From positions 2,852,001-2,916,000 of the forward strand of contig NZ_CP015098.1 of the NCBI RefSeq assembly GCF_001611795.1: a stretch of DNA of 64,000 nt, in the 5' to 3' direction. Below, one piece after another: positions 7,610 through 35,949 of the stretch. Position 1 is the stretch's first letter. Every line of letters starts with the position of its first letter. Below the pieces are notes generated by a model. The model did no database searches, had not been told where the DNA came from, and saw only the letters and a list, made by a program, of their open reading frames with translations. The position numbers and the translations under genes are program-made. Origin of the DNA: Streptomyces qaidamensis. Its GTDB lineage: Bacteria; Actinomycetota; Actinomycetes; Streptomycetales; Streptomycetaceae.

Positions 7610-7623
7610 CCGAAATATCGAAC
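7610..7623 (+). promoter_or_regulatory. Putative IclR-type operator B
   Basis: CCGAAATATCGAAC is a near-identical copy of operator A, 15 bp before the GTG of the barrel protein gene. No clear -35/-10 pair stands out immediately upstream. Confidence 0.55.
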
Positions 7624-15965: not shown

Positions 15966-17402
15966 TCAGGCCGCCGTCAGTTTCCACTGCTGGCAGGTGT
16001 TGTTGAGCCAGGACCACTGGCGTACGTCGGCGCCGTCCGCCGTCGAGCAACCGGCGACGTCCGCCACCTTCCCCGTGGCCTTGTTGGTGATACGGACATA
16101 ACCACCGTCCGTAGCCACGAACTGGTACCGCTGACAGGTGTTGTTCAGCCAGGACCACTGGCGCAGGTCGGCGCCGTCGGCCGTCGAGCAGTCGGCGGTG
16201 TCGAGGACCTTGCCGGTGGCGACGTTCACCAGGCGGTGGGTGTCGTCGCCGAGGTCCTCCAGGCGCCAGCGCTGGTTGCCGCCTCCGTTGCAGCCGTACT
16301 GCTGGACGTTGGCTCCGTCGGCCGAGGAACTCCCCGCCACCTCCAGACACCTGCCGCTGTTGCGGTTGGTGACGGTGTAGGTCGTCGAGGCCGCCGACGG
16401 TTCCCCGGAGGGGCCGGGGAGGGACGCCCCGAGCCTGACCGGCGTGCCGAAGTTCGGCGTTCCGTCGGAGTTCCAGGTGAACTTCTGCGCCCGGGTCGTA
16501 CGACCGTTGTCGCAGCCGTCCGAGGCGGAGTCGTTGGCGTGGTAGACGATCCAGTTCTCGCGGCCGTCGGGCGAGGTGAAGAAGCCGTTGTGGCCGGGGC
16601 CGTACACCCCGTTCGCGTCACTGCGCTGGAAGACGGGCGTCGACTTCTTGGTCCAGGAGGAGGCGGACAGCGGGTTGGAGCCCGTCAGCTCCAGTTGCCC
16701 GAGCTTGTAGTCGGGCGTCCAGCAGCCGCTCGCGGAGTAGATCAGGAAGGTCCGGCCGTTGCGCTGGAGGACCTCCGCGCCCTCGTTGACCGTGCCGCCC
16801 TGCCGCTCCCAGGCGTGGGTCGGTGTGGAGATCGTCGAGTACGCGCCGCTGACGGTGTACGGGTTCGACATCGCCGCGATGACGACGTTCTGCGTCCCGC
16901 CGGTGTTGGCGCTGCCCAGCATGTACAGCCGGCCGCCCACGTTCAGCACGCTCGGGTCGAGCATCCAGGCGCTGTTGAGCTGCCCCTTGTAGGTGTACGG
17001 CCCCATGGGGTCCGAGCCCGCGCTCTCCAGCACATGGCTGCGCTGTGTCGGGTTGTAGTCGGACACGTTCTGCCCGGCCACGTAGTACAGGTACCAGCGG
17101 CCGTTGAGGAAGTGCAGCTCCGGCGCCCAGATGTTGCAGCAGCGGGAGGCGGCGTCGCCCTTCCACACCTGGACGCTGGGGGCGGTGGAGAGCCCGGCGA
17201 GGGTGGTGGACTTGCGGATGGTGATGACGTCGGTCCAACTGGTCGTCACCAGGTAGTAGTTGCCGTCGTGGTACGAGATCCAGGGATCGGCGCCTTTGAC
17301 GGACTTGACCGGGTTGGAGAAGGAGGCGGCGCTCGCGGAGGGCTGGCCGAAGCTCAGCGCGAGCAGCAGGGCCGCCAGCAGGGTCAGTAGGCGACGGGCC
17401 AT
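15966..17402 (-). CDS. Secreted GH43 arabinosidase/arabinanase with ricin-B (CBM13) module
   Basis: A 478-residue extracellular glycosidase. A Sec signal peptide (LLTLLAALLLALSFGQPSAS) precedes a GH43 five-bladed propeller: catalytic base Asp in KGADPWISYH, the pKa-modulating Asp in MLDPSVLN and the proton-donor Glu in GTVNEGAEVL. From about residue 345 a ricin-B-type trefoil has three repeats with QYG/QWSW motifs (ADGANVQQYG, ADGADLRQWSW, ADGADVRQWSW) that bind galactose or xylose-type polysaccharide. It likely releases arabinose from arabinan or arabinogalactan side chains. Its ATG lies inside the upstream GH43 gene, 19 bases before that gene ends, so translation is coupled. Confidence 0.88.
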   Translation of the reverse strand: MARRLLTLLAALLLALSFGQPSASAASFSNPVKSVKGADPWISYHDGNYYLVTTSWTDVITIRKSTTLAGLSTAPSVQVWKGDAASRCCNIWAPELHFLNGRWYLYYVAGQNVSDYNPTQRSHVLESAGSDPMGPYTYKGQLNSAWMLDPSVLNVGGRLYMLGSANTGGTQNVVIAAMSNPYTVSGAYSTISTPTHAWERQGGTVNEGAEVLQRNGRTFLIYSASGCWTPDYKLGQLELTGSNPLSASSWTKKSTPVFQRSDANGVYGPGHNGFFTSPDGRENWIVYHANDSASDGCDNGRTTRAQKFTWNSDGTPNFGTPVRLGASLPGPSGEPSAASTTYTVTNRNSGRCLEVAGSSSADGANVQQYGCNGGGNQRWRLEDLGDDTHRLVNVATGKVLDTADCSTADGADLRQWSWLNNTCQRYQFVATDGGYVRITNKATGKVADVAGCSTADGADVRQWSWLNNTCQQWKLTAA

Positions 17403-18364
17403 CCGCTGCTCCAGTTCAGGAGGTTGATGCCGAGTTTGGGTGTGCCGTTCGCGTTGCCGTCGTAGTAGTGGTAGACGATCAGGTCGCCGTCGGCGTCCTT
17501 CAGGATCGACTGGCCGCCGGGGCCGATGACGCTGCCGTGGGACTCCAGGACGGGCGTGCCGCCGTTCTTCATCAGGTCGACGCCATTCTTGTCGCGGTAC
17601 GGCCCGGTGACGCTGGAGGCGCGCCCCACCTTCACCTTGTACGTCGAGCTGGTGCCGGCGCAGCAGGTGTCGTACGAGGCGAAGAGGTAGTAGTAGCCGC
17701 CCCGCTTGACGATGAAGGGCGCCTCGACGGCCTTGGTCCCGGTGGGGCGGGAGGCGAGCGAGTGCCGGGTGGTGTTGGAGGAGAGCTGCTTCCCGGTGGA
17801 CGGGTTGATCTGGATCATCTTGATCCCGGTCCACCAACTTCCGAACGACAGCCACCACTTGCCGTCGTCGTCCACGAAGAGGTTCGGGTCGATGGCGTTG
17901 AAGTCGCTGGACGAGCTCGAGGTGTAGACCGTGCCCTGGTCGGTCCAGCTGCCCGGCTGGCCGGTGGTGGAGGTGGCGAGGCCGATGGCCGAGGTGTTCG
18001 AGCCGAACTTCGAGACGGAGTAGTACATCAGGTACTTGCCGCCGTGGTACGAGATGTCCGGCGCCCAGGCCTCCGGCACGGAGGAGTAGTTCCGCCACCA
18101 GCCCGGCCGGCTGGAGAAGGCGTCGCTGCCGTTGCGGAAGGCGGTGCGGTCGCTGCTGGTCTTGTTGGCGATGCCGCCACCGGTGGCGTAGAGCAGGTAC
18201 TGGCCCGACGAGGTGCGGAGCATCGACGGGTCGTGGGTGACGACGTCACCGGTCACCCGGCCGGGGTTGGGGTACGCGGACGCCGTGCTCGGAATCAGGG
18301 CGAGCAGGGCTGCGGCGGGGAGTGCGAGCAGGGCGGTGCGCCTGCGCACGGGGGTGCGGCTCAT
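17384..18364 (-). CDS. abnA: Secreted endo-1,5-alpha-L-arabinanase (GH43)
   Basis: A 326-residue enzyme matching AbnA-type endo-arabinanases in length and motifs. After a signal peptide (RRRTALLALPAAALLALIPS) come VVTHDPSML (catalytic base Asp), FNAIDPNLFVDDDGKWWLSF (second Asp), TKAVEAPFIVKRGGYYYLFA (acid Glu) and SHGSVIGPGG, the loop whose histidine coordinates the structural metal ion. It cuts linear arabinan internally. The start at 18364 has an excellent AAGGAGG site. It is the first gene of a two-gene arabinan operon, with a promoter/operator module at 18399-18463. Confidence 0.92.
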   Translation of the reverse strand: MSRTPVRRRTALLALPAAALLALIPSTASAYPNPGRVTGDVVTHDPSMLRTSSGQYLLYATGGGIANKTSSDRTAFRNGSDAFSSRPGWWRNYSSVPEAWAPDISYHGGKYLMYYSVSKFGSNTSAIGLATSTTGQPGSWTDQGTVYTSSSSSDFNAIDPNLFVDDDGKWWLSFGSWWTGIKMIQINPSTGKQLSSNTTRHSLASRPTGTKAVEAPFIVKRGGYYYLFASYDTCCAGTSSTYKVKVGRASSVTGPYRDKNGVDLMKNGGTPVLESHGSVIGPGGQSILKDADGDLIVYHYYDGNANGTPKLGINLLNWSSGWPVAY

Positions 18365-18398
18365 GCGGGTCCTCCTTGCGGTGGGGGTGAAAGTGCTG

Positions 18399-18463
18399 CC
18401 GATATGTCGAACAGCGATCGCAAGTTCGAACGGGACCGTAGAATCGAACCCCTTGCGCGTCAA
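18399..18463 (-). promoter_or_regulatory. Arabinanase promoter with IclR-type operator D
   Basis: Minus strand: -35 TTGACG (18458-18463), 17-bp spacer and -10 TACGGT (18435-18440). TCGA-containing half-sites flank the -10 (ATCGAA at 18443-18448, TTCGAA at 18425-18430). Downstream, CCGATATGTCGAAC (18399-18412) fits the recurring 14-bp motif. The same elements with identical spacings recur at 30325-30389. Confidence 0.75.
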
Positions 18464-18534
18464 TGGTTCGCGCAGCAACGACCGCGCCCCGAGGAGGAAA
18501 TCCCTCCCCGGGGCTGTCGCCGTTCCCCGGAAAA

Positions 18535-19593
18535 TCAGCCGGTGGGGAGACCCAACCCGTAGTACGTCACGTGATAGCCGTCCACGTACGCGGCCTCACC
18601 GCCGACGATCAGACCGGCCGGCTCGGCCACCCCCGCCGCCCTGGCCGTCGCCACGAGCATCTCAGCGAGGGCGCGGCCCTTGGGCTGGCCGGGCCCTCCC
18701 GCGTCCACGCGCCACACCGGATCGTCGTCGCGCCAGACCGAGGCGGTAGCCGGGTGTTCGGCGACGGTGCCCCAGCCGAGCGCAGCCGCATCGACGCCGT
18801 CCGGGGCGAAGCAGCCGATCGACAGCCGGTCGCCGCACGTGACATCGAAGAGGAGGGGCGCACCACCGCCGGTCCGCCCGTAGAACGGCATCCCGAAACC
18901 GACACCGAGGGCGACGGCCTCGGCGGGCAGGGCACCCAGGAAGTCGCCCAGCGACCGGGTGACGGTCTCCCAGCTGCGGGCGGTCCAGCCGCCGGGGAAG
19001 CCGAGGCCGGCGTTGGCCGGATCGCGATTGCTGCCGAAGAAGCCGCTGAGGGCGTGCTCTTCGCCGTGGCCCTGACGCCAGAACCAGTTCTCCGCCGGGC
19101 CGGTGGGCTGCAGGACCAGCTCCGGCCCCGCCTTCCCGGCGCGCAGCTCCAGGGTGTCCGGGCTGCCGCGCCAGCGCATGAAGGGGGCACCCCACAGCGG
19201 CCCGCTGTCGTAGAAGGGGCCCATGTCGCCGTGCGACCCCATGACGGACGGCCGGCCCAGGGCCGCGGTCAGTTCCTCGCCGGCCGCGCGGAAGGCGGCG
19301 GCCTGTGCGGGGGCGTCGGATGCGGCGGCCGCCACCGGTACCGCGAGCTCCACATACGACTCGCCGTCGGTGTACCGCTCTTCGTAGGTGCCGACGGGAC
19401 GCAGGCGGGCGTCGCCCGAGGAGAGGCCGGTGATCAGGACCGGACGGTCCGCCGTGCCGCCCCGGGCCCAGCCGAGCCCGTCCGCCAGGGCGTTCACCCC
19501 GTCCGGCGTCCAGCCGCCGGTGTCCGCCGCGCGGAGTCGTCGGGCGAGGTCCGCGAGCGATGGTTCTTCAGTGCTGCCCCGTTGTGCGTTCAT
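18535..19593 (-). CDS. Hypothetical protein, DUF6301-like N-terminal half
   Basis: A 352-residue cytoplasmic protein with no signal peptide or membrane helix. The first half (SLADLARRLRAADTGGWTPD and on to LRAGKAGPELVLQ) resembles the DUF6301 pattern seen in Streptomyces. The second half (ENWFWRQGHGEEHALSGFFG onward) is aromatic-rich and of unknown type. No catalytic motif is evident. It sits 20 bases after a PPOX-type gene on the same strand and may be co-transcribed with it. The family match is from memory and only moderately sure. Confidence 0.7.
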   Translation of the reverse strand: MNAQRGSTEEPSLADLARRLRAADTGGWTPDGVNALADGLGWARGGTADRPVLITGLSSGDARLRPVGTYEERYTDGESYVELAVPVAAAASDAPAQAAAFRAAGEELTAALGRPSVMGSHGDMGPFYDSGPLWGAPFMRWRGSPDTLELRAGKAGPELVLQPTGPAENWFWRQGHGEEHALSGFFGSNRDPANAGLGFPGGWTARSWETVTRSLGDFLGALPAEAVALGVGFGMPFYGRTGGGAPLLFDVTCGDRLSIGCFAPDGVDAAALGWGTVAEHPATASVWRDDDPVWRVDAGGPGQPKGRALAEMLVATARAAGVAEPAGLIVGGEAAYVDGYHVTYYGLGLPTG

Positions 19594-19613
19594 GCGCTCA
19601 TCGTGCCGCAGCC

Positions 19614-20072
19614 CTATCCCTCGATGTCGAGCACGGTCCCGTACAGCCGGTCCACCCTCAGCCGGATGACGACGCGCCGCTCGTCGACCAGTTGCCGGAG
19701 GAATGCGCCCTCGTCCTCCGGTTCGGCGCCCGCCGGGATCATCGCGAGCAACTCCCGGCCGACCGCGTCGCCGGGAACCGTGGTGGGCTCGGAGACCTCG
19801 GCGTCTCCCTCGGCGACGGCGAACGACCAGATGTCCCCGCCCTGTACGTGCAGCGCGGCACGGGGTGCGCGGCGCAGGTGCTTGACCTTGACGCGGTCGG
19901 CGGTGGTCGAGAAGCGCACCGTGCGGGACTCGGCGTCCCAGCTGTACACCATGGTGGTCAGGTGGGGGTGGCCACTGCGTTTGACGGTGGCGAGCGTGCC
20001 GAACTGCTGCTTGCCGAGCAGGTCGGAGAGGGCTGCGTCGGACAGGGGGCGGGGTTCCGGTCTCTGCGTCAT
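19614..20072 (-). CDS. PPOX-class F420-dependent oxidoreductase
   Basis: A 152-residue split-barrel flavin/F420-binding protein. The pattern LLGKQQFGTLATVKRSGHPH, then VYSWDAESRTVRFSTTADRV, KVKHLRRAPRAALHV and FAVAEGDAEVSEP is the TIGR03618-type F420-binding PPOX family common in actinobacteria. Members reduce diverse substrates with F420H2; this one's substrate is unknown. It is the third of four or five minus-strand genes packed with short gaps (20 to 35 bases), probably one transcript. Confidence 0.88.
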   Translation of the reverse strand: MTQRPEPRPLSDAALSDLLGKQQFGTLATVKRSGHPHLTTMVYSWDAESRTVRFSTTADRVKVKHLRRAPRAALHVQGGDIWSFAVAEGDAEVSEPTTVPGDAVGRELLAMIPAGAEPEDEGAFLRQLVDERRVVIRLRVDRLYGTVLDIEG

Positions 20073-20105
20073 GCCATCGCCAACACCGTTGCGGCGCAGA
20101 TCATT

Positions 20106-20477
20106 TCAGGGTGCCGGCCGGAATCTGACCTCGGCACGTACGGTCTTGCCGGGCGCCGGCTTCCGTTCCAGCACCTCCCACCGTTCGGCGAGCGCCGCGA
20201 CGAGGGCCAGCCCCCGGCCGTGTTCGTCGAGGGTGCCCGGCCGCGCCACGCCACACGGCCCTGCCGGGCTCGGCGGCCCGCTGTGCGTGTCGGTCACCTC
20301 GACGCGGACGCTGTCGCCGACGAGCGACAGCCGCAGCTCGAAGTCCCTGCCCGGCACGCGCCCGTGCGTCACGGCATTGGCGGCCAGCTCGGCGACGATC
20401 AGGGCGACGGCGTCGGAGGCGTCCGTGCCGTGGGGGACGCCCCAGGTGTGCAGCCGGTCCACGGCCGGGCCCGACAC
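20106..20477 (-). CDS. Short HATPase (anti-sigma-factor kinase-like) protein
   Basis: A 123-residue HATPase_c_2 (RsbW/SpoIIAB-like) protein. The N box is seen as VAELAANAVTHG and the G boxes as VEVTDTHSG and DEHGRGLALVAALAERW. Streptomyces encodes many such small ATP-binding proteins that act as anti-sigma or anti-anti-sigma kinases. This copy begins at GTG 20477, only 3 bases after the YciI stop. It lacks roughly 25-30 residues found before the first helix in typical members, so it is either minimal or truncated at the N terminus. No partner sigma factor is nearby. Confidence 0.72.
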   Translation of the reverse strand: MSGPAVDRLHTWGVPHGTDASDAVALIVAELAANAVTHGRVPGRDFELRLSLVGDSVRVEVTDTHSGPPSPAGPCGVARPGTLDEHGRGLALVAALAERWEVLERKPAPGKTVRAEVRFRPAP

Positions 20478-20480
20478 ACG

Positions 20481-21032
20481 TCACCGCCGCCCGCCGAACT
20501 CCCACGCGTGCACCTCGATGCCTGCGTACCGCCCCTGGTGGGCCAGCAGCGCACGCGCCGCCTCCGCGTCCGGGGCCCGCACCAGCGCTGCCGTTCCCAC
20601 CCACACGGCACCGTCGTCGGACAGCAGCGGCCCGTAGGCGATGAGATCGTCCCGGTCGTACGGCACGTCGAGGTCGACGGCCGTCCCCGCCCCGAAGCCG
20701 AGCACGAGGAATCGGTCCCCACCGCTCGGTCCACCGGGAAACTCCCACATGGTCCGCCCCAGCAGATTCCGCCACCGCCGCAGCAGCACGTCCCGGTAGA
20801 CCCCGGCCTGGTGGTTGGGCTCCTCGAAGGCGAACGCGCGGGCAGCGACGGCATCCGGCAGGTCGACGATGTGCACGCTGCCCGTGACCGTCTCCCCGTC
20901 ATCCGCGAAAGTCGGCCCACGGGCGATCAACTCCGCCTCGTACCGGTCCATATAGGCCCAGTGTGCCTCCCCCAGTTCCTCACGCAGGGGCAGGGAGCCG
21001 GGCCGGTCGCGGTGGTAGCAGAAAAACTCCAT
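20481..21032 (-). CDS. YciI-related (YCII) domain protein, duplicated
   Basis: A 183-residue protein built from two ferredoxin-like YCII units. The first is MEFFCYHRDRPGSLPLREEL with VTGSVHIVDLPDAVAARAFA. The second is FLVLGFGAGTAVDLDVPYDR with VWVGTAALVRAPDAEAARAL. YCII proteins are putative enzymes or dimerising scaffolds; some are fused to ECF sigma factors. No catalytic assignment can be made here. The stop at 20481 is 3 bases before the HATPase start. Confidence 0.78.
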   Translation of the reverse strand: MEFFCYHRDRPGSLPLREELGEAHWAYMDRYEAELIARGPTFADDGETVTGSVHIVDLPDAVAARAFAFEEPNHQAGVYRDVLLRRWRNLLGRTMWEFPGGPSGGDRFLVLGFGAGTAVDLDVPYDRDDLIAYGPLLSDDGAVWVGTAALVRAPDAEAARALLAHQGRYAGIEVHAWEFGGRR

Positions 21033-21146
21033 GGCTCATCCAACCTCGGTGACCACTCTCGTGTCCTCCGTCGTCACGACCGCAGGAGAGCAGACCGTGC
21101 GCAGCGCCGCCGTGACCCCCGAGGGCGACCGAATCCGCTGACACAA

Positions 21147-21185
21147 GGGGCGGCCCGCCGGACCACAGGCCCGGTGAACCGCCCC
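21147..21185 (-). terminator. Terminator after the DUF4360 gene
   Basis: GGGGCGG (21147-21153) pairs with CCGCCCC (21179-21185), with an inner CCGG/CCGG pairing, directly downstream of the minus-strand stop at 21197. The rest of 21033-21196 shows no gene. Confidence 0.65.
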
Positions 21186-21196
21186 CGTTCACCCCG

Positions 21197-21850
21197 TCAC
21201 GACTTCTTCGGGCACTCCTTCCACGCCAGGTGGTACACCGTGCTGATGTCCCCGTCCGTGGAGTCCATCGTCATGAAGCTGACCTTGTCGGCCGACTGGG
21301 TGCCGGCGTTGACGCGGATCTCGGTGTTGATGTTGAAGTTGCGTTGGACTCCGCAGGGTGCGTAGACCAGTTGGGCCCAGTCGGTCTCGTCGGTGGCCTG
21401 CCAGTTGTCGTTGAGGGGGCCGCTGAAGGGATGGCTCTTGTACACCGTGCTGGGCGAGCCCTGGAAGTAGTACGAGGCCCGCTGGGTGGCGCTCGCGCCC
21501 CGCTGGAGGGAGGCGAATCCCCGGTAGTCCGCGCTCGCGATGGCGTAGGTGAAGCCGCCGGGGACGTGGACCTTCAGGTTGAGCTGGCAGTTCCTGCGGA
21601 ACGCGGTCGGGTCGGAGCTTCCGCCGGCCTGTGCGAGGTAGTCGCTGTAGGTCACCGTGAAGGCGGTGTTGTCCTCGGAGACGGCGACCGCTGCCGTGCC
21701 CTGCGGGCAGCCGGAGCCGTTCACCGTGGCGACCTGGATGATGATCTTGTCCGGGGGCGGGTCGTCGAACCCGGAGGACGGGGATTGTGCGGGAAGTGCG
21801 CTGGTGAGCAGCGCGGCGATCGCGCCGCTCAGGAGCAGGCCACCGGCCAT
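21197..21850 (-). CDS. Secreted DUF4360 protein
   Basis: A 217-residue exported protein. The signal peptide MAGGLLLSGAIAALLTSALP is followed by the DUF4360 pattern: VATVNGSGCPQGTAAVAVSE, YLAQAGGSSDPTAFRRNCQL and VYKSHPFSGPLNDNWQATDE, with paired cysteines (GCP, NCQ, PCG, ECP). The domain is common in secreted fungal and streptomycete proteins of unknown function. The ATG at 21850 follows GGGAGA. A longer frame upstream lacks the signal peptide at its start and is unlikely. The 236 bases upstream hold no recognisable operator. Confidence 0.82.
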   Translation of the reverse strand: MAGGLLLSGAIAALLTSALPAQSPSSGFDDPPPDKIIIQVATVNGSGCPQGTAAVAVSEDNTAFTVTYSDYLAQAGGSSDPTAFRRNCQLNLKVHVPGGFTYAIASADYRGFASLQRGASATQRASYYFQGSPSTVYKSHPFSGPLNDNWQATDETDWAQLVYAPCGVQRNFNINTEIRVNAGTQSADKVSFMTMDSTDGDISTVYHLAWKECPKKS

Positions 21851-22086
21851 GGTTCTCCCATCCGTTCGTGGGGGGTGGATCGTGAAGTTGAATAAGCATG
21901 CACATGTCAAAGCGACAGGTACACGCACCCCCGGCCTGTGACCATTCCATGAAGGAGATGTGAAGAGCGGGAGCGGTCGCATCGTACGCAGGACGGCAGG
22001 GGTCGGCCAGGTCCCTCTCCGGCCATTCACACTGGCGGGAATTCACCCGGTACCGGCGGACGCATAGGGTGCGTTGCACCAGTGCG

Positions 22087-22407
22087 TCAGACCGAGGACA
22101 TCCCGAGGACGGAATGAGGATCACGCACAGCGCCGCGCACGGACACGATCGGCCCGTCCACGGCCCGGAACACGTCCGCGACCGTGACCTCCGAGGCCTC
22201 CCGGGCCAGCCGGTGGCCGCCGCCCCCGCCGCGCCGGCTGTCGACGACGCCGCCGCGCCGCAGATCGCCGCGGATCCCCTCCAGGAACTTGTGGGGGATG
22301 TCCTGCGCGGTGGCGACGGCCTCCGCCTTGACCGGCCCCTCGCCCTGCCGGGAGCCCGGCTCCACGACCGCTCGTCCCGCGCGGTCCGCACGTGCCGAGA
22401 TCCTCAT
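22087..22407 (-). pseudogene. Decayed Rrf2 family regulator
   Basis: The 106 codons still show the Rrf2 core: KAEAVATAQDIPHKFLEGI, DLRRGGVVDSRRGGGGGHRL and ASEVTVADVFRAVDGPIVSV. However, the first helix is eroded (ADRAGRAVVEPGSRQ where the family has an aliphatic ADYAVRA helix), and the C-terminal 40 or so residues are replaced by an unrelated tail (RDPHSVLGMSSV). The family is usually about 140-155 residues. It may still bind DNA, but decay is more likely. It is divergent from the GH35 gene. Confidence 0.6.
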
Positions 22408-22440
22408 AGGACCATGGTGGCCGTCACCCTGTAGACATGG

Positions 22441-22528
22441 AGCACACGCACCCCAGCACCACATCGAGCACGCACCCCGCACCACATCGACCACACGCAC
22501 TCCGTACGACAAGCACACGCACCACGCA
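22441..22528 (+). repeat. Imperfect tandem CACGCACC repeats before the GH35 gene
   Basis: About four degenerate units of roughly 18-25 bases (CACGCACCCC-GCACCACATCGA type) lie in the short region between the Rrf2 remnant and the GH35 start. They are purine-poor, unlike the rest of the window, and end just before AGGAGG at 22543-22548. No known binding site is recognised. Confidence 0.55.
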
Positions 22529-22555
22529 TCGCATGGCACAACAGGAGGCGCTCCC

Positions 22556-25528
22556 TTGGAGCTCAGCAGGCGTACCTTCCACGCTCTCGCCGGCACGGCC
22601 ACGCTCGGCTTCGCGCTGACCGGCAGCGGGTCGCCGACCTCCGCCGGCACGGCACGGAGCGTACCCACGGGCCCGCCGCCACCGGTTCCGCGCGCGGACG
22701 GCCGGCGGCACGAGGTCGGCTTCGACCGGTACTCGCTGCTGGTCGACGGCCGCCGACTGGTGATCTGGTCGGGCGAGATGCACCCCTTCCGGCTGCCGAG
22801 CCCGTCCCTGTGGCGGGACGTGCTGGAGAAGATGCGTGCCCACGGCTACAACGCGGTCAGCGTGTACGTCGCCTGGAACCACCACTCCCCCGCCCCCGGC
22901 CGCTACGACTTCACCGGCGTGCGCGACCTGGACCTGTTCCTGCGGACGGCCGCCGAGACCGGTCTGTACGTGATCCTGCGGCCCGGCCCGTACATCAACG
23001 CGGAGGTCGACGCCGGCGGCTTCCCCGGCTGGCTGACCGCGACCGAGGGCCGGGCCCGGACCTCCGACCCGACGTATCTGCGCTACGTCGACGAGTGGCT
23101 GACCGCCGTGAACGCCATCGTCGCGAAACGCCTGTTCACGCGGGGCACGGGCACGGTGCTGCTCTACCAGATCGAGAACGAGTACGACGCGCACGTCGAC
23201 GAGCCCTCCGGGCGCGCCTACATGTCGTACCTGTACGAGAAGGTCCGCGCCGACGGCATCGACGTGCCGCTGTTCCACAACGACAAGGGCAGGAACGGCC
23301 ACTGGACGCCCGGCTCGTTCGGCACCGGCGGCGAGAAGGGACGCTGGCTGTACGGGTTCGACGGATACCCGGAGCCGGACGAGGTGCCGCCCGACTGGGG
23401 GCACTTCGGGACCGGCGGGGCGAAGGGCGGGGCCACGGCCAGTCCGCGCACGCCAGGGTTCGTGCCCGAGTTCGGCGGGGGCTGGTTCGACCCGTGGGGC
23501 GGGTCCTGGTTCGACGGCAAGGGGTACGCCGAGGCGCGCCGGACCCGGGACGCGGCGTACGAGCGGCGCTTCTACCTCACCAACCTCGCCAACGGCATCA
23601 CGCTGCACAACGTCTACATGACGTACGGCGGCACCTCCTGGGGCTGGCTGCCCGCGCCCGTCGTCTACACGTCGTACGACTACGGCGCGGCCTTCGACGA
23701 GGCCCGCAACGCCACCCCGAAGCTCGCCACCATGCACCAGATCGGCCAGTTGCTGCGCCATGTGCCGGACCTCGCCAAGCTGAACCGGGGCAAGGCGGTA
23801 CAGGCCGCCGACGAGCGGATCAAGGTCTACCACCTGGCCAACCCCGACACCGGGGCCCACTTCTACCTCCTGCGCAACGACTCCGAGGAGACGGTCACCT
23901 CGACGCTGCCGGATGCCGGAATCGACGTGCCGGTCACGGTCCCGGCGCGGGACGCCAAGCTGATCGCCGCCGGGCTGAGACTCGGCAGGCGGACGCTGGT
24001 GCACGCCACCGTGCAGCCCATGCTGAGCCTGACCGCCGGGCGGCAGGACATCGCCGTGTTCGCGGGCCGGCGGGGCGATCTGGCGCAGGTCGTGCTGGAC
24101 TGCCCGGACGAACCGACGCCCATGCGGCTGGACCCGGAACCCGCGTGGGCCTACAACCTCGGCAAGCTGTACGTCACCGCTCCGCTCGGCGTCGGCGAGC
24201 TGAGCCGGGTGCGGATCGAGAGCGACGGCGTGGACACGCCGATGCTGCTGTTGTTCGCCGACGACGCGACGGCCGTGCGGCTGTGGCCGTACGAGACGCC
24301 GTCCGGCCGGCTCCTCGTCTACGGGCCGGCACTGCTGCGGTCGGCCGTGCTGCGCGGCTCCACCGTCCACCTCACCGGGGACACCACCGCGCTGACCGGC
24401 CTGGAGGTGTGGGGACCGCGCGGGATCACCCACGTCACGTGGAACGGACGCCCGGTGCCCACCCGGATCAGCGGCTCCGGCAGCCTGCTGGCGCTGCGGC
24501 CGCTGCCCGGTGTGACCCGGCCGGCCCTGCCCGCCCTGGACGGCTGGCGACGGCGGGCCGGGAACCCGGAGTCCGAACCGGACTTCGACGACTCGGACTG
24601 GACGACGGCCGACAAGGAGACCACGTTCAGCACCACGCCCGTGCCCGGCGGGCAGCCCGTGCTGTTCGCCGACGACTACGGCTTCCACTACGGCGACGTC
24701 TGGTACCGCGGCGAGTGGACCGGCGACAGCGGCATCGAGTCCGTGTCCCTGGCCTACAGCACGGGCACGCAGGGCCTGCTGATGGCCTGGCTGGACGGCG
24801 AGCCGCTGGGCACGCACCGGATGCCCGTGCCGGACAAGGAGCGGGCGCGGCAGGGCACGTGGACCGCGGAGGCCGGCTTCGACCTGCCGGAGCGGCTGCG
24901 GAAGAAGCTCCGTGAGGGAGAGCCTGAGCAGCGGCACGTGCTGTCCGTGCTCGTCCGGCGGATGCAGCACGACATGGACGGCGAGGCGCTCGACACGCAC
25001 AAGGCCGCGCGCGGGCTGACCGCCGTCACCTTCGAGGGCGGCTCCCCGAGGGTGAAGTGGCGTATCCAGGGCGCGACCACGCCGGACCCCGTGCGCGGTC
25101 CGATGAACAACGGCGGGCTGCACGGGGAGCGCGAGGGCTGGCACCTGCCCGAGTACGACGACGGGGACTGGAAGGACGCCGGGCTCCCCGCGGGCGACCG
25201 GCGGCAGGGCGTCACCTGGTACCGGACGGACTTCCGGCTGGACGTCGCCCCGGGCGTCGACGCCTCGGTCGGGCTCGTCCTCGACGACGACCCCGAACGG
25301 GCGTACCGCGTCCAGATCTTCCTCAACGGCTGGAACCTGGGCCAGTACATCAACGACGTGGGCCCGCAGCACACCTTCGTGCTGCCGAACGGCATCGTGC
25401 GCACCCGGGGCGCCAACACCCTGGCGCTGGCGGTGCTGTCCGACGGGAGCACCCCCTCCGGGCCGGGCGAGGTGCGGCTGACACTGCTGGGCGCCGCGGC
25501 CGGAGGGGTGCCCGTCAAACCGGTCTGA
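22556..25528 (+). CDS. Secreted GH35 beta-galactosidase, multidomain
   Basis: A 990-residue glycosidase starting at TTG 22556, 7 bases after AGGAGG; the open frame extends further upstream without a better start. A Tat-like signal (LSRRTFHALAGTATLGFALT) leads to a GH35 TIM barrel: GEMHPFRLP, GLYVILRPGPYINAE, acid/base E209 in QIENEYD and nucleophile E305 in VPEFGGGWF. Beta domains follow, and two jelly-roll modules lie near the C terminus (GFHYGDVWYRGEW about residue 705; GVTWYRTDFRLD about residue 890). It removes terminal beta-galactose, probably from galactan or arabinogalactan. It faces the arabinofuranosidase gene convergently, with an 18-base gap. Confidence 0.9.
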   Translation: MELSRRTFHALAGTATLGFALTGSGSPTSAGTARSVPTGPPPPVPRADGRRHEVGFDRYSLLVDGRRLVIWSGEMHPFRLPSPSLWRDVLEKMRAHGYNAVSVYVAWNHHSPAPGRYDFTGVRDLDLFLRTAAETGLYVILRPGPYINAEVDAGGFPGWLTATEGRARTSDPTYLRYVDEWLTAVNAIVAKRLFTRGTGTVLLYQIENEYDAHVDEPSGRAYMSYLYEKVRADGIDVPLFHNDKGRNGHWTPGSFGTGGEKGRWLYGFDGYPEPDEVPPDWGHFGTGGAKGGATASPRTPGFVPEFGGGWFDPWGGSWFDGKGYAEARRTRDAAYERRFYLTNLANGITLHNVYMTYGGTSWGWLPAPVVYTSYDYGAAFDEARNATPKLATMHQIGQLLRHVPDLAKLNRGKAVQAADERIKVYHLANPDTGAHFYLLRNDSEETVTSTLPDAGIDVPVTVPARDAKLIAAGLRLGRRTLVHATVQPMLSLTAGRQDIAVFAGRRGDLAQVVLDCPDEPTPMRLDPEPAWAYNLGKLYVTAPLGVGELSRVRIESDGVDTPMLLLFADDATAVRLWPYETPSGRLLVYGPALLRSAVLRGSTVHLTGDTTALTGLEVWGPRGITHVTWNGRPVPTRISGSGSLLALRPLPGVTRPALPALDGWRRRAGNPESEPDFDDSDWTTADKETTFSTTPVPGGQPVLFADDYGFHYGDVWYRGEWTGDSGIESVSLAYSTGTQGLLMAWLDGEPLGTHRMPVPDKERARQGTWTAEAGFDLPERLRKKLREGEPEQRHVLSVLVRRMQHDMDGEALDTHKAARGLTAVTFEGGSPRVKWRIQGATTPDPVRGPMNNGGLHGEREGWHLPEYDDGDWKDAGLPAGDRRQGVTWYRTDFRLDVAPGVDASVGLVLDDDPERAYRVQIFLNGWNLGQYINDVGPQHTFVLPNGIVRTRGANTLALAVLSDGSTPSGPGEVRLTLLGAAAGGVPVKPV

Positions 25529-25546
25529 CCGGACCGGCCGGGGCCG

Positions 25547-27061
25547 TCAGGCCAGCCGGATCACGTTCCAGGACAGCGGCTCCAGGGCGGCGCTCAGCGT
25601 GCCGTCCTGGAGGGTCGTGCCGTCGACGGTGTGCGGGGCGACCCGCTCGGGGTCGTCGAGGGTGTTGCGGGCGTCGGGGTCGGCGTCCGCGAGGGCGCTG
25701 TGCTCGACGACCCGCGTCAGGCCGAGGGCGTCGAGGGCGACTTCGAGCGGCAGGGCGTCGGTGCGGCTGCGGTTGACGGCGAACACGGTGACGGTGCCGT
25801 CCTCGGCGCGCACGGCGGTGGCGTGCAGCAGGTCGGTCTCGCCGTACTTCCTCGTCTCGTACGTCGGCGAGTCCACGCGGACGTCCAGGACCTGGCCGCG
25901 GCCGTACTGCGCGGCCTGCGCGAACGGGAAGAACGTGGTCTGCCGCCAGGCCGGGCCGCCGGGCTCGGTCATGATCGGCGCGATGACGTTGACGAGCTGG
26001 GCGAGGCAGGCGACCGTGACACGGTCGGCGTGCCGGAGCAGGGCGATGAGGAGCGAGCCGAAGACGACCGCGTCCGTCACGCTGTAGTTGTCCTCCAGCA
26101 GGCGCGGCGCCTCGGGCCAGTCGTCCTGCTCGAAGGTCTTGGCGCGGGCCTCCCACTCGGGCAGGTACCAGACGTTCCACTCGTCGAAGGAGAGGTTGAT
26201 CTTCTTCTTCGACTTCAGCCGGGCGCCCACGTGGTCGGCGGTCGCGACGACGTTGTCGATGAAGGACTCCATGTCGACGGCGGAGGCCAGGAAGGAGTCG
26301 AGGTCGCCGTCCTCGGGCCAGTAGTAGGCGTGCAGCGAGATGTAGTCGACGAGGTCGTACGTCTCCTTCAGGACCGTCGCCTCCCACTCGGCGAAGGTCG
26401 GCATGGACTGGCTGGAGGAGCCGCAGGCGACGAGTTCGACGCCGGGGTCCATCTGGCGCATGGCCCGGGCCGTCTCGGCGGCGAGGCGGCCGTACTCCTC
26501 GGCCGTCTTGTGGCCGGTCTGCCAGGGGCCGTCCATCTCGTTGCCGAGGCACCAGAGTTTGATGCCGAAGGGGTCCTTGTCGCCGTGGGAGACGCGCAGG
26601 TCCGACAGGGCGGTGCCCGCGGTGTGGTTGGCGTACTCCTGGAGTTCGAGGGCCTCGGCGACTCCGCGGGTGCCGAGGTTGACGGCCATCATCGGCTCGG
26701 CCTGGGGGCCGATCTTGCGCAGGAAGTCGATGTACTCGGAGAGGCCGAAGCGGTTGGACTCCGTCGAGTGCCAGGCGAGGTCGAGGCGGCGGGGGCGGTC
26801 CTCGGCAGGGCCGACGGAGTCCTCCCACTTGTAGCCGGAGACGAAGTTGCCGCCGGGGTAGCGGACGGCCGTGACGCCGAGTTCGCGGACGAGTTCCAGG
26901 ACGTCCTGGCGGAGGCCCTTGTCGTCGGCGGTGGGGTGGTCCGGTTCGAAGACGCCGGTGTAGACGCAGCGGCCGAGGTGTTCCACGAAGCTGCCGAAGA
27001 GGCGGGGGTTGACCTCGCCGACCGTGAAGGCGGGGTCGAGGGTGAAGCGGGCGGTGTGCAT
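25547..27061 (-). CDS. abfA: Alpha-L-arabinofuranosidase (GH51)
   Basis: A 504-residue intracellular enzyme that removes arabinofuranose from arabino-oligosaccharides. Catalytic acid/base E175 lies in CLGNEMDGPW and nucleophile E294 in LSFDEWNVWY, the same residue numbers as in the well-studied Geobacillus AbfA. Other family motifs are NPRLFGSFVEHLGRCVYTGV, VRYPGGNF and SLHAYYWPE. No signal peptide is seen, consistent with acting on oligosaccharides imported by the ABC system encoded just upstream. The ATG at 27061 follows GAAAGG. A 106-base gap containing a repeat separates it from the permease gene. Confidence 0.96.
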   Translation of the reverse strand: MHTARFTLDPAFTVGEVNPRLFGSFVEHLGRCVYTGVFEPDHPTADDKGLRQDVLELVRELGVTAVRYPGGNFVSGYKWEDSVGPAEDRPRRLDLAWHSTESNRFGLSEYIDFLRKIGPQAEPMMAVNLGTRGVAEALELQEYANHTAGTALSDLRVSHGDKDPFGIKLWCLGNEMDGPWQTGHKTAEEYGRLAAETARAMRQMDPGVELVACGSSSQSMPTFAEWEATVLKETYDLVDYISLHAYYWPEDGDLDSFLASAVDMESFIDNVVATADHVGARLKSKKKINLSFDEWNVWYLPEWEARAKTFEQDDWPEAPRLLEDNYSVTDAVVFGSLLIALLRHADRVTVACLAQLVNVIAPIMTEPGGPAWRQTTFFPFAQAAQYGRGQVLDVRVDSPTYETRKYGETDLLHATAVRAEDGTVTVFAVNRSRTDALPLEVALDALGLTRVVEHSALADADPDARNTLDDPERVAPHTVDGTTLQDGTLSAALEPLSWNVIRLA

Positions 27062-27099
27062 GCTTGCCTTTCGAGGTTCCGTTTCGTCTGCGGGTCTGT

Positions 27100-27162
27100 G
27101 GGGGCTTGTCGCGCCCACGCGGCGGAGCCGCACATCGCAACAGCCCCGCGCCCCTGCGGGTG
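27100..27162. repeat. Interspersed Streptomyces intergenic repeat
   Basis: A GC-rich element beginning GGGGGCTTGTCGCGCCCACG and ending CAGCCCCGCGCCCCTGCGGG. From memory it is a very common intergenic sequence in Streptomyces. It can fold (GGGGCTTG with the later CAGCCCC) and may reduce read-through from the permease gene into abfA. A related copy forms the 5' end of the gene at 42007. Confidence 0.6.
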
Positions 27163-27167
27163 CTGCT

Positions 27168-28001
27168 CTACTGCCCTGCCAAGCCCGTGTGGGCCACGCC
27201 GGCCACGATCTGGCGTTGGAAGAACACGAAGACGATGATCAGGGGCAGGCCCGCCATCAGGCCGCCGGCCATGAGCTGGGCCCATTGGATGCCGTAGGAG
27301 TTCATGACGGTCGCGATGCCGTTCGGCATGGTCATCAGGTCGGGGTTGTTGGTCACCATGTAGGGCCAGAGGAAGTTGTTCCACGAGGCGATGAAGGTGA
27401 AGATGCCGACCGCCGCCAGGGAGGGGCGGGAGAGCGGGAGGACGATGGTGAAGAAGACGCGCCAGCGGCCGGCGCCGTCGATGAAGGCGGCCTCTTCGAG
27501 TTCGCGCGGGATGCCCTGGAAGAACTTGTAGAGGATGTAGACCATCGCGGCGGGTGCGCACTGCGGCAGGATCATGCCCCAGTAGGTGTCGACCATGCCC
27601 ATCTGCTGGACGGTGGTGAAAAGCGGCACGCCGAGGACCGCCGGGGAGATCATCAGGCCCGCCATGACCACGCCCATGAGGACGTTCTTGCCGCGGAACT
27701 CGGTGCGGGCGAAGCCGTAGCCGGCCAGGGCGCTCACCAGCAGGACGACGGACGTCACGCAGACCGAGACGACCAGGGAGTTCACGAACCAGTTGGTGAT
27801 GTTGCCGGAGTCGAACAGGGCCTTCCAGGCCTGGCCCGTCCAGTCCTCGGGGAGCCAGTGCGCCGGGACCTCCACCGCCTCGGTCTCGGACTTGAGCGAG
27901 GTGAACAGGCCCCAGGCGAAGGGCGCGAGGAAGACGACCGACACGGCCGTGCCGAGCAGGGTGAGCAGGATCTGGCTGGGCGTCCACGCCTTGGTGGTCA
28001 T
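27168..28001 (-). CDS. Oligosaccharide ABC transporter permease (MalG type)
   Basis: A 277-residue inner-membrane permease with six predicted helices and the EAA loop EEAAFIDGAGRWRVFFTIVL that docks the ATPase. It is of the CUT1 (oligosaccharide) class and pairs with the MalF-type permease encoded upstream, whose stop overlaps its start (ATGA). No ATPase is encoded here. In Streptomyces such importers commonly share MsiK, encoded elsewhere (known of the group, inferred here). The likely cargo is arabino-oligosaccharide. Confidence 0.94.
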   Translation of the reverse strand: MTTKAWTPSQILLTLLGTAVSVVFLAPFAWGLFTSLKSETEAVEVPAHWLPEDWTGQAWKALFDSGNITNWFVNSLVVSVCVTSVVLLVSALAGYGFARTEFRGKNVLMGVVMAGLMISPAVLGVPLFTTVQQMGMVDTYWGMILPQCAPAAMVYILYKFFQGIPRELEEAAFIDGAGRWRVFFTIVLPLSRPSLAAVGIFTFIASWNNFLWPYMVTNNPDLMTMPNGIATVMNSYGIQWAQLMAGGLMAGLPLIIVFVFFQRQIVAGVAHTGLAGQ

Positions 28002-28936
28002 CGGGCGCTCTCCTCACGGTTGCGCAGCAGCCACATCCGGGCGAGGGCGACGGCCGCGATGATCACGAAGAAGATGACGGAGATCGCGGAGGCGTAGCCC
28101 ACGCGGTAGCTGGTGAAGCCCTCTTCGAGGGTGTACTGCACGAAGGTGCGGGTCGATCCCTCGGGTCCGGGGAGGAAGTCCATCATCACGACGGCCTGGT
28201 CGAAGATCTGGAGCGAGGCGAGGACCTGGAGGGCGATGACCAGGCCGGTGATGTTGCGCAGCATCGGCAGGGTGATGTGGACCATGCGGTGCCAGGCGTT
28301 CGCCCCGTCCAGTCTGGCGGCCTCGTAGAGGTGGTCCGGGATGCCCTGGAGGGCGGCGAGGTAGAGCAGGAAGCTGAAGCCGACGGTCCACCACAGGGTG
28401 GTGATGACGATGGCGAGCATCGCGTAGGACTTGTCGGTCAGCCAGGGCGTCTGGAGGCCGAAGACGTGGTCGATCATGCCGGTGCCGGGGTTGAACAGCC
28501 ACTGCCACAGGTTGGCTGCGACGGTGGACGGCAGCAGGAACGGGGCGAAGAAGCAGAGCCGCCACAGCCATTTGCCGCGTTCGATGTGGTGGGCGAGCAT
28601 CGCGAGGAGGAAGGCGAGGACGGTGATGCAGGGGACGACCAGGAGCGTGAAGTACGCGCTGTGGCCGAGGGAGTCCCACACCAGGGGGTCGTTGAGGGCC
28701 TCGCGGTAGTTGTCGAGGCCGACGAAGCTCGCGCCCTCGCCCGTGATGTTGGCGTCGGTGAAGCTGAGGTAGACGCCGCGCAGCAGCGGCCAGATCACGA
28801 ACACGGCGAACAGCAGCAGGAACGGGGCGACGAACCAGCCGCCGTGCTGGAATCCCTGTTTGCGGCGCAGGGTGGTGCTGCCGGCGGCGGTCGTCGCGCG
28901 TGCGGGTGCGGCGATGGTGTGGGCGCTGGTCGCCAT
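27998..28936 (-). CDS. Oligosaccharide ABC transporter permease (MalF type)
   Basis: A 312-residue permease. After a short Ala/Thr-rich cytoplasmic start come six helices, with the EAA loop YEAARLDGANAWHRMVHITL. The ATG at 28936 overlaps the binding-protein stop (28936-28938), and GGAGG lies 9 bases upstream. It forms the heterodimeric channel with the MalG-type partner. Confidence 0.94.
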   Translation of the reverse strand: MATSAHTIAAPARATTAAGSTTLRRKQGFQHGGWFVAPFLLLFAVFVIWPLLRGVYLSFTDANITGEGASFVGLDNYREALNDPLVWDSLGHSAYFTLLVVPCITVLAFLLAMLAHHIERGKWLWRLCFFAPFLLPSTVAANLWQWLFNPGTGMIDHVFGLQTPWLTDKSYAMLAIVITTLWWTVGFSFLLYLAALQGIPDHLYEAARLDGANAWHRMVHITLPMLRNITGLVIALQVLASLQIFDQAVVMMDFLPGPEGSTRTFVQYTLEEGFTSYRVGYASAISVIFFVIIAAVALARMWLLRNREESAR

Positions 28937-30291
28937 CAGGCGGCACCTCCTTCTGCGGCGGTCTTCCCGTCCATGGGGTTCTTCGTGGCGAGGAGCTGGG
29001 TGAGCGCCTTCTTCATGCGGCCGGCCGCGGTCTCCGGCTTGGCGGAGCCCATCGTCGAGGAGACGACGATGGGGCCGACGCGCTGGGCGAGGATGCCGGT
29101 GGAGCCCGCGAACCACACCTTCGGCTCGGTGGCCTGGTGGTCCATGGCGGCGACGTACTCGCTCTGCGGGTCCAGCTTCTTGTACGCCGCCGTGGACAGG
29201 GTGGGGGTGTAGGCGGGGATGTGGCCGCCGGCCGCCCACTGCTGGGCGTGCTGGACGACGTAGGCGGCGAGTTGGTGGGCGGCCTCGTTGGTGGCGCCGC
29301 CGCGGTCGGACTGGTGCGGCAGGACGAAGGAGTGCGACTCGGCGTGGGTGGCCGGCCGGCCGAAGACGGGCGGCAGCGGGGTCGCTCCGTAGTCGAGCTT
29401 CGCCCCGGAGTAGACCGGGACCGACCAGTTGCCCTCCCAGACGAAGGGGGAGCCGTTGAGGAACTGTTCGGCGCTCGCGAGGCCTCCGAAGCCCGGGTCG
29501 GAGTACCCGTCGGTGACGTGCCGGCGCAGGAACCGAAGGACCTGGACGGCCTTGTCGGTGTCGAAGGTGACCTCGGTGTCGGTGGCGTTGAACCAGGTGC
29601 CGCCGAGCTGGGTGTAGAAGGCGACGAAGAACCACCACTGGAAGTTCTGGTCGGCGTTCCACATGCCGATGGTCTGGAGCCCCTTCTTCGTGGCCCGCTT
29701 GGCCTCCTTCAGCACGTCGAACCACTCGTCGGGGGAGGTGACCGGCACGATCCGGCCGTCGTCGCCGAGCAGCCCCGCCTTCTTCAGCACGTCCTTGCGG
29801 TAGAAGCAGAGCTGGACGTGGATGTCGAGGGGGAGGGCGTAGAGCTTGCCGTCGATGACGCCGCGCTTCCACAGGGTGGGGTTGTAGTCCTCCTCCCGGA
29901 CGCCGTACTTGGCGAGCAGGCCGGTGTCCCAGGGGTCGAGGAGGCGGCCTGGCGCGAAGCCGGTGACCCGGCCGAGGTGCATGACGCCGAGGTCGGGGGC
30001 GCGGTTGCCCGCCGCCGCCATGGCGAGTTTGGTGTAGAAGGGGCTGCCCCACTGGAGGGTGGAGTCCTTGACGGCGATGTTGGGGTTGGCCGCACGGAAG
30101 GCGTCCAGCATGGCGATCATGTTGGAGCCGTCGCCGCCGCTGAAGAGGTTCCAGTAGCGCACCCGTGTGTCGGCGTCGGAGGCGAGTGCGTCGGCGCCGG
30201 TGCCGAGCGCGGCGAAGCCGAAGCTGCCGGCGACGAAGAGTCCGCCGAGCCCGCCGAGAAGCTGCCTGCGATTCAGGTCAGGTCGTCCCAT
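28936..30291 (-). CDS. Oligosaccharide ABC transporter substrate-binding protein (Tat)
   Basis: A 451-residue family 1 solute-binding protein. The N terminus LNRRQLLGGLGGLFVAG is a twin-arginine signal without a lipobox cysteine, so it may remain membrane-anchored or be free outside the cell. The mature protein shows the usual pattern (VRYWNLFSGGDGSNMIAMLD, GKLYALPLDIHVQLCFYRKD, FVWEGNW). It is the first gene of an operon with two permeases and abfA, behind a promoter that copies the arabinanase promoter. The substrate is probably arabino-oligosaccharides (inferred from context). Confidence 0.92.
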   Translation of the reverse strand: MGRPDLNRRQLLGGLGGLFVAGSFGFAALGTGADALASDADTRVRYWNLFSGGDGSNMIAMLDAFRAANPNIAVKDSTLQWGSPFYTKLAMAAAGNRAPDLGVMHLGRVTGFAPGRLLDPWDTGLLAKYGVREEDYNPTLWKRGVIDGKLYALPLDIHVQLCFYRKDVLKKAGLLGDDGRIVPVTSPDEWFDVLKEAKRATKKGLQTIGMWNADQNFQWWFFVAFYTQLGGTWFNATDTEVTFDTDKAVQVLRFLRRHVTDGYSDPGFGGLASAEQFLNGSPFVWEGNWSVPVYSGAKLDYGATPLPPVFGRPATHAESHSFVLPHQSDRGGATNEAAHQLAAYVVQHAQQWAAGGHIPAYTPTLSTAAYKKLDPQSEYVAAMDHQATEPKVWFAGSTGILAQRVGPIVVSSTMGSAKPETAAGRMKKALTQLLATKNPMDGKTAAEGGAA

Positions 30292-30324
30292 GCCCTGCCC
30301 TTACGATCGATGACGAATAGCTGT

Positions 30325-30389
30325 CCGGTATTTCGGATGGCGCTCGTTACTTCGAACGGGACCGTAAATTCGAAGCGCTTGCACGTCAA
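30325..30389 (-). promoter_or_regulatory. Oligosaccharide transporter promoter with IclR-type operator E
   Basis: Minus strand: -35 TTGACG (30384-30389), 17-bp spacer and -10 TACGGT (30361-30366). TTCGAA half-sites lie at 30369-30374 and 30351-30356, and CCGGTATTTCGGAT (30325-30338) lies downstream. Every spacing equals that of the arabinanase promoter at 18399-18463, and the flanking CCATTGACG-GCAAG is also shared. Confidence 0.78.
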
Positions 30390-34100: not shown

Positions 34101-34121
34101 GTCAGCCGTCAGCCGTCAGCC
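34101..34121. repeat. Three tandem copies of GTCAGCC
   Basis: GTCAGCC occurs three times head to tail and overlaps the stop codon of the lactonase gene (minus strand, stop at 34116-34118). Slippage here could change the C-terminal end. Confidence 0.7.
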
Positions 34122-34964
34122 GGCGAAGACGGGCTGGGCCAGTCCCTTGCCCGCCCCCGGCACCACGAACAACGACCCCGCCAGCGCGGGCGGATCGGTC
34201 AGGCCCACACGAGCGGTCGTCACATACAGGTCGGTGAGCCCGGCCCCGCCGAACGCGCAGGCCGTCACCAGCGGCACCGGCAGCTCGATCACCCGGTCCA
34301 GCTCACCGCCGGGGGTGTACCGCCGCACCGCCGAGCCCTGCCACAGGGCGACCCACACGCACCCTTCGGCGTCCACGGTCAGCCCGTCCGGGAACCCCGC
34401 GCTCTCCTCGATCCGGGCGAGGGTGCGCCGCCCGGAGATCCGCCCGTCCGCGTAGTCGAAGACGTCGACCCGCCGGGTCGGGGAGTCGATGTAGTACATG
34501 AGCCGCCCGTCGGGGCTCCACCCCGTGCCGTTGCTGACGGCGACGTCGTCGAGCACGACCTCCACGGTGCCCCCGCCGGTGACGCGGGACAGCGTGCCGC
34601 CCCCCGGCGCCTCGTCGTAGCGCATGGTGCCCGCCCACAGCGCGCCGTCGGGCGCGATCGCGGCGTCGTTGGCGCGGCGGCCCGGGACCGGCTCGTGGTG
34701 GAGCCAGCGGAAGCGGTCGTCCGGGTCGAGGAGGCCGATCCCGTCGCGCAGGTTCAGCACCAGGCCGCCGCCGGCGCGCGGCCTGACGGCGCCGATGTGC
34801 TGTTCCGTGCGGCGGACGGTGCGGCGCCCGGTGGCGGGGTCGTAGGTGTGCAGGCGAGAGCCGAGGATGTCGATCCACAGCAGCCGGCCGGCCGCCGCGT
34901 CCCAGGTGGGGCCCTCGCCGAGCTCGGCCTCGGCCCGCACGGCGACTTCGTACGGCGTCGTCAT
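34116..34964 (-). CDS. SMP-30/gluconolactonase-type sugar lactonase
   Basis: A 282-residue six-bladed propeller that hydrolyses aldonolactones. The metal ligands are visible: Glu in ELGEGPTWD (about residue 16), Asn in GRRANDAAIAPDG, Asn in VSNGTGWSPDG and Asp in FPDGLTVDAEG. This would be the second step of an oxidative sugar pathway, between a sugar 1-dehydrogenase and an acid-sugar dehydratase, both of which have candidates at 5335-7499. Its start overlaps the stop of the IclR gene (ATGA), so regulator and lactonase are made together. Confidence 0.92.
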   Translation of the reverse strand: MTTPYEVAVRAEAELGEGPTWDAAAGRLLWIDILGSRLHTYDPATGRRTVRRTEQHIGAVRPRAGGGLVLNLRDGIGLLDPDDRFRWLHHEPVPGRRANDAAIAPDGALWAGTMRYDEAPGGGTLSRVTGGGTVEVVLDDVAVSNGTGWSPDGRLMYYIDSPTRRVDVFDYADGRISGRRTLARIEESAGFPDGLTVDAEGCVWVALWQGSAVRRYTPGGELDRVIELPVPLVTACAFGGAGLTDLYVTTARVGLTDPPALAGSLFVVPGAGKGLAQPVFAG

Positions 34965-35769: not shown

Positions 35770-35786
35770 TGTTCGAGATTTCAACA
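35770..35786 (-). promoter_or_regulatory. Putative IclR-type operator F (autoregulatory)
   Basis: TGTTCGAGATTTCAACA is an imperfect palindrome matching the 14-bp motif in reverse orientation. It lies 36 bp before the IclR ATG. Confidence 0.55.
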
Positions 35787-35949
35787 GGCGATCGGCATGA
35801 CGAACACAGGCTAGCCATAGAGGTATGTCCGGGCAATGGGCAGCGGACCTACGAGCGGAAACCCACGAGGCCCCACATTCGCGTGGTGTGCCCATTAAAG
35901 TGCCCGGTGTGCGACACGTCACAGGTGTCGCAGAGGTGGGGGGATTTCT

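Follow-up and report, generated by a model that had tools for sequence, protein, structure and literature searches.

In a 64-kb stretch of the genome of Streptomyces qaidamensis (NZ_CP015098.1, positions 2,852,001 to 2,916,000; this whole stretch is referred to as the window, and positions are counted from its first letter), two minus-strand promoters, A (18463-18397) and B (30389-30323), lie 12 kb apart and resemble each other over ∼65 bp. Promoter A drives abnA and promoter B precedes an operon for an ATP-binding cassette (ABC) importer and ArfA. The features at the two loci are as follows (fractions of 16 are matches to a published consensus for operators of IclR-family regulators, introduced below):

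17384-18364, minus strand: abnA, secreted GH43 endo-arabinanase, driven by promoter A
15966-17390 (start approximate), minus strand: second GH43 gene with a ricin-type lectin domain, downstream of abnA
18458-18463, minus strand: promoter A -35, TTGACG, kept in abnA orthologues
18435-18440, minus strand: promoter A -10, TACGGT, 17-bp spacer
18434-18449, minus strand: A site O3, GTTCGATTCTACGGTC, candidate third IclR-type site, overlapping the -10 (13/16)
18416-18431, minus strand: A site O2, GTTCGAACTTGCGATC (13/16)
18397-18412, minus strand: A site O1, GTTCGACATATCGGCA (13/16), the 14-bp palindrome of the original prediction; centre 19 bp from O2
28936-30291, minus strand: solute-binding protein (SBP; SBP_bac_1) of the ABC importer, first gene of operon B
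28014-28946, minus strand: ABC importer permease, assigned by position (no Pfam match)
27168-28001, minus strand: ABC importer permease
25547-27133, minus strand: ArfA, GH51 alpha-L-arabinofuranosidase (NF051901, above the curated cut-off)
30384-30389, minus strand: promoter B -35, TTGACG
30373-30380, minus strand: AAGCGCTT palindrome in the B spacer, possible LacI-type operator (17/21 orthologues)
30361-30366, minus strand: promoter B -10, TACGGT
30360-30375, minus strand: B site O3, CTTCGAATTTACGGTC (13/16), not kept in every orthologue
30342-30357, minus strand: B site O2, GTTCGAAGTAACGAGC (13/16)
30323-30338, minus strand: B site O1, ATCCGAAATACCGGAC (14/16); centre 19 bp from O2

The elements claimed for A (18399-18463) and B (30325-30389) in the original prediction were all found and align without gaps on the minus strand, with the -35, the 17-bp spacer, the -10 and the elements beyond it all in the same register, equal distances of 12, 18 and 17 bp, and the flanking CCATTGACG.GCAAG in common. 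At A, TTGACG-17-TACGGT (18463-18435; spacer TTCGAT) is followed by TTCGAA (18430-18425) and the palindrome-like TTCGACATATCGG to 18399; at B, TTGACG-17-TACGGT (30389-30361; spacer TTCGAA) is followed by TTCGAA (30356-30351) and the palindrome-like TCCGAAATACCGGA to 30324. The 14-bp palindromes described there are thus present at both promoters, though both are imperfect. The likeness cannot be put down to chance, because a 29-base pattern of the -35/-10 block (TTGACGNGCAAGNGNTTCGANTNTACGGT) matched exactly two places in the 9,083,372-base genome, A and B, with up to three mismatches allowed, and its reversed control matched none. Exact occurrences of TACGGTCCCGTTCGAA were also restricted to A and B. 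The protein families at the two loci suggest that A would supply an extracellular enzyme, and B uptake and an intracellular enzyme, for arabinan fragments; AbnA matched NF053747 with an E value of 1.5e-93, yet below that model's cut-off.

To characterize the downstream elements, promoters were scored with an independent, published 16-bp core (GTYCRA-W4-TYGRAC). The corresponding consensus, NGTYCRAW4TYGRACN, defines a subgroup in a survey of the IclR family in which sugar and sugar-acid genes are common; tandem sites with centres 18-22 nt apart were reported there in 94 groups and interpreted as tetramer binding (Suvorova and Gelfand 2021, PMC8222616). O1 and O2 matched 11-14 of 16 positions in four window promoters and 12-15 in two distant ones (a score of ≥13 was found at 1.4e-4 of positions). 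In all six promoters the best or joint-best pair was spaced by 19 bp and scored 23-27 of 32, while maxima across 20 Markov-generated 64-kb sequences were 20-23. Within the window, scores of ≥23 were confined to the four promoters and a fifth place, at 7608, which has a single perfect (16/16) site. The 19-bp spacing, within the 18-22 bp range of tandem sites, was best or joint-best in 95/96 orthologous promoters (abnA: 16/16; SBP: 20/21; iclR: 30/30; dehydratase: 29/29), and O2 began 2-3 bp after the -10 in nearly all of the 96. The element shared by A and B is therefore most likely a pair of IclR-family operators with centres 19 bp apart, as judged from sequence.

Alignment of homologous Streptomyces promoters showed that this pair is kept. 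Regions upstream of SBP genes in 21 species retain CATTGAC..AAGCGCTT..TACGGT-CC(C)-GTTCGAAGTTACGNGC-ATTCGATATCTCGAACA, and distant SBP homologues (proteins 40-46% identical) retain much of the tandem part; abnA orthologues retain CCATTGACGCGCAAG-N3-TTCGATTCTACGGTCC(C)GTTCGAACTTGCGATCG-TGTTCGACATATCG. The iclR promoter reads TAGCCTGTGTTCGTCATGCCGATCG(C/T)CTGTTGA(A/T)ATCTCGAACA in nearly all of 30 relatives, with the strict module in 78/80 further iclR promoters from named genomes, and nearly all of 29 genomes share TACTGTCACGCCAGCATTTCGAACGTGTGACGAAATCTCGAACAG in the dehydratase promoter, the most divergent being L235 and L256. An operator-promoter architecture of several half-sites, compatible with a multimeric regulator over the start region, is accordingly real, as had been predicted; what is conserved, however, is a pair of 16-bp sites with centres 19 bp apart, located after the -10, and not the four half-sites proposed.

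In the S. qaidamensis genome the site pair stands at no fewer than six promoters: A, B, those of iclR and a dehydratase operon within the window, and those of two distant arabinofuranosidase genes. The additional window features are:

35771-35805, minus strand: tandem operator pair of the iclR promoter, 19-bp spacing (11/16 and 12/16)
35808-35836, minus strand: iclR promoter, TTGCCC-17-TAGCCT
34961-35734, minus strand: IclR-family regulator, proposed owner of the sites
34116-34964, minus strand: SMP-30/gluconolactonase-like lactonase, in an operon with iclR
5239-5273, plus strand: tandem operator pair of the dehydratase operon, 19-bp spacing (12/16 and 14/16)
5207-5236, plus strand: dehydratase operon promoter, TTGACA-18-TACTGT
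5335-6498 (likely true start GTG 5335), plus strand: MR_MLE-type sugar-acid dehydratase, galactonate dehydratase-like
7608-7623, plus strand: single site GTCCGAAATATCGAAC, perfect 16/16 match to the IclR consensus, upstream of the gene at 7638

In genome searches with mismatches allowed, a combined pattern was matched perfectly nowhere but at A and the iclR promoter, and with two mismatches at B. Two of the other places with two mismatches precede genes that the pattern had no knowledge of, both for secreted arabinofuranosidases, a GH51 enzyme (CBM4_9 plus ASD1 domain) and a GH43 enzyme with AbfB; both (L187 and L190, at 1.82 and 8.19 Mb) carry the 19-bp site pair. The idea of a duplicated cassette in two copies was consequently not upheld, as the module is regulon-wide and also precedes iclR, the dehydratase operon and the two distant arabinofuranosidase genes. 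The dehydratase operon (5.3-12.7 kb) encodes the MR_MLE dehydratase, a dehydrogenase and a ChvE/GguAB-type sugar importer, and an aldose epimerase gene is likewise in the window.

Ownership of the sites is most likely to be assigned to the iclR gene at 34961-35734, the only candidate examined that fits. Its product contains both IclR-family domains (HTH_IclR, PF09339, 6e-13; IclR_C effector domain, PF01614, 2.2e-48) and matches KdgR, IclR and TtgV (TtgV: E = 4.6e-18); the nearest solved structure to its effector domain is a KdgR (1ysp), from which a keto-deoxy sugar acid might be guessed as inducer. The site pair precedes the regulator's own gene without mismatch to the combined pattern. In many relatives iclR is a neighbour of the importer (SBP) operon, and in one (G015) it neighbours the dehydratase gene; the dehydratase gene was present in 29/29 genomes with iclR and 0/9 without (38 genomes). 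Where the importer genes are missing from this position in a relative (L172 in G101), the module stands directly upstream of arfA; in another (L173 in G049) a remnant of the SBP gene remains. The combined pattern (≤1 mismatch) was found in 23/24 genomes with iclR versus 2/22 without, with no reversed-pattern matches, although part of this signal is supplied by the iclR promoter itself, which genomes without iclR lack by definition. Several other points also count against this assignment. The link between IclR and the sites rests on sequence, conservation and gene context; the genome holds further IclR-family genes; the relatives compared are phylogenetically non-independent; O1 of B and O2 of iclR are degenerate in this strain; and some distant abnA orthologues (L118, L119 and L121) have a different upstream region without the module, which may mean that abnA regulation was rewired in that lineage.

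On balance we consider it likely that A and B are outputs of one arabinan/L-arabinose regulon, in which the IclR protein encoded at 34961-35734 would repress through 19-bp site pairs until a breakdown product releases it. With the start point placed from the -10, the site pairs span roughly the start and the first 35 bases, and because they cover and just follow the expected start, IclR is inferred to be a repressor. By analogy with IclR-family precedent, including TtgV, two dimers would occupy the pair, probably as a tetramer bound to a single face of the DNA, and would block RNA polymerase at the start region. A breakdown product of arabinan or L-arabinose, perhaps a sugar acid or keto-deoxy acid, would then release the repressor. 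This would induce abnA, the importer (for arabino-oligosaccharides) together with arfA, the dehydratase/ChvE operon, and the operon of iclR and the lactonase. An independent hint comes from Streptomyces sp. SirexAA-E, in which the run SACTE_1895-1901 (annotated as 1895, galactonate dehydratase; 1896, dehydrogenase; 1898, sugar-binding protein; 1899, ATPase; 1900, permease; 1901, arabinofuranosidase) showed higher abundance with xylose than with glucose (PMC12772271). This run resembles the window's 5-12 kb operon in order, with orthology judged from names and order only.

The TTCGA in the spacers of A and B forms the left half of an additional 16-bp match (O3; 13/16 in both). This match is positioned 18 bp upstream of O2, where it overlaps the -10. 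O3 scored ≥11 in 13/16 abnA promoters and 11/21 importer promoters, and the same position scored ≤9 in all iclR and dehydratase promoters. The O3-O2 distance is 17 or 18 bp (17 in many relatives) because one base after the -10 varies, while O2-O1 is constant at 19 bp; the spacer half-site therefore moves with the -10 and not with the operator pair. The spacer TTCGAA was downgraded from an equal member of a four-half-site unit, being absent from about half of the importer orthologues and sliding between the two distances. O3 may be a third repressor site peculiar to A and B or, alternatively, a trace left jointly by promoter sequence and some other factor. It may give the repressor one more contact with which to occlude the promoter, more regularly at A than at B. 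A bolder version, in which IclR is the master regulator of arabinan use and acts at A and B through an array of three sites (18 + 19 bp), the first of them merged with the -10 itself, is rather unlikely. If true, A and B would have a tighter or two-step switch, set by three dimers or by a tetramer that can adopt either of two registers, in contrast to the two-site catabolic and autoregulatory promoters.

The most conserved spacer element of the importer promoters is AAGCGCTT, which the original prediction did not name. This palindrome with a central CG was found in 17/21 B orthologues versus 1/14 A orthologues and resembles LacI-family cores such as the CebR box, a weakly supported indication that a second, LacI-type regulator might bind between the -35 and -10 of B. 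Joint control, by IclR on the tandem sites and a trans-acting LacI-type protein on AAGCGCTT at B and a decayed GCAAGNNNTTCG at A, is plausible though on the doubtful side. The element occurs even in importer promoters that lack the TTCGA spacer half-site, AGCGCT is the core of the Streptomyces LacI-type CebR box, and the genome yields >40 LacI matches; against this, the element's centre is variable in A orthologues and no LacI gene is linked. That the sites belong wholly to another regulator with a similar motif, for example a BxlR-like LacI-family protein recognising CGAANxTTCG, appears improbable. The dehydratase site does contain CGAAATTTCG, and the Streptomyces BxlR-type motif is CGAANNTTTCG/CGAANxTTCG (PMC12772271), but CGAANNTTTCG is absent from A and B, the linked LacI-family gene expected of an AraR/BxlR-type regulon was not found within the 64-kb window, and the constant 19-bp tandem spacing and the pair upstream of iclR fit IclR-family behaviour.

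The sign of regulation could also differ, as the IclR family includes some activators; the placement of the sites past the -10, where they cover and follow the start, suits repression, however, and activation of these promoters by IclR is given little credence. Finally, the likeness of A and B over ∼65 bp at a distance of 12 kb might reflect a recent duplication that copied one promoter, with shared regulation going no further than ancestry. This is very improbable and was rejected, as both forms are old: in many Streptomyces each has been kept, independently of the other, with the gene it belongs to, and the identical operator pair occurs at promoters with different -35 and -10 sequences.

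Other observations concern the surroundings of these promoters. A large GH35 beta-galactosidase gene (22184-25528) lies between abnA and arfA on the opposite strand, and no tandem site was seen upstream of it, although arabinogalactan would need such an enzyme. Several relatives (L125-L127 and L129-L133) carry a second abnA-like gene (∼50% identical) in the importer operon, between permease and arfA. The gene at 7638, within the dehydratase/ChvE cluster, encodes 322 aa without a Pfam or NCBIfam match, and besides the single site at 7608-7623 there is a weaker one at 8587. Dehydratase promoters (L228-L256) have another conserved element, GTCGAAACCGTTATGCGTTCGACCCATTGACA, which lies ahead of the -35 and partly over it and which the IclR consensus does not explain. 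A similar site pair was seen upstream of secreted GH27-type alpha-galactosidases in two other species (L219 and L224), hinting at a wider or paralogous regulon.

These results provide a candidate regulator, operator and target set for arabinan/L-arabinose use in Streptomyces, a large genus of soil bacteria noted for breaking down plant biomass. With a 19-bp geometry that recurs at four types of promoter in dozens of species, both tandem IclR binding and the role of the third site at the -10 can be tested directly, and the promoters are a potential source of arabinose-inducible promoters for Streptomyces. For arabinanase genes, a 2024 review names the LacI-type AraR/XylR (PMC10766802); nothing direct on an IclR-type or other repressor of arabinan in Streptomyces was found in the literature searched.

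Among known systems, the NGT-12-ACN IclR regulons (PMC8222616) share the 16-bp consensus, the 18-22 bp tandem spacing, the sugar and sugar-acid targets and a regulator-linked operon with the system described here. They differ in that arabinan and arabinofuranosidase targets are unmentioned in that paper's main text, and in that the sites here stand in strict register with the -10, with a third site at two promoters. TtgV of Pseudomonas putida, an IclR-family protein with a solved DNA complex (PDB 2XRO; tetramer on a long operator), is related in sequence and only compatible in spacing; unlike the window IclR it controls efflux pumps, and the tetramer proposed here is drawn by analogy. PcaU-type three-box IclR sites likewise have a third element beside the site pair, but in PcaU this is a single box, whereas here it is a further 16-bp site, 17-18 bp upstream and overlapping the -10. 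AraR and XylR, which are LacI-type repressors of arabinan and xylan genes, and the Streptomyces regulators BxlR and CebR work in a similar way, by substrate-induced hemicellulase gene repression, through a different protein family and different operators; no LacI gene is linked in the window. The type of switch, an IclR tandem operator, is thus a known one, and the sugar regulon it would control appears to be new as far as the searched literature shows.

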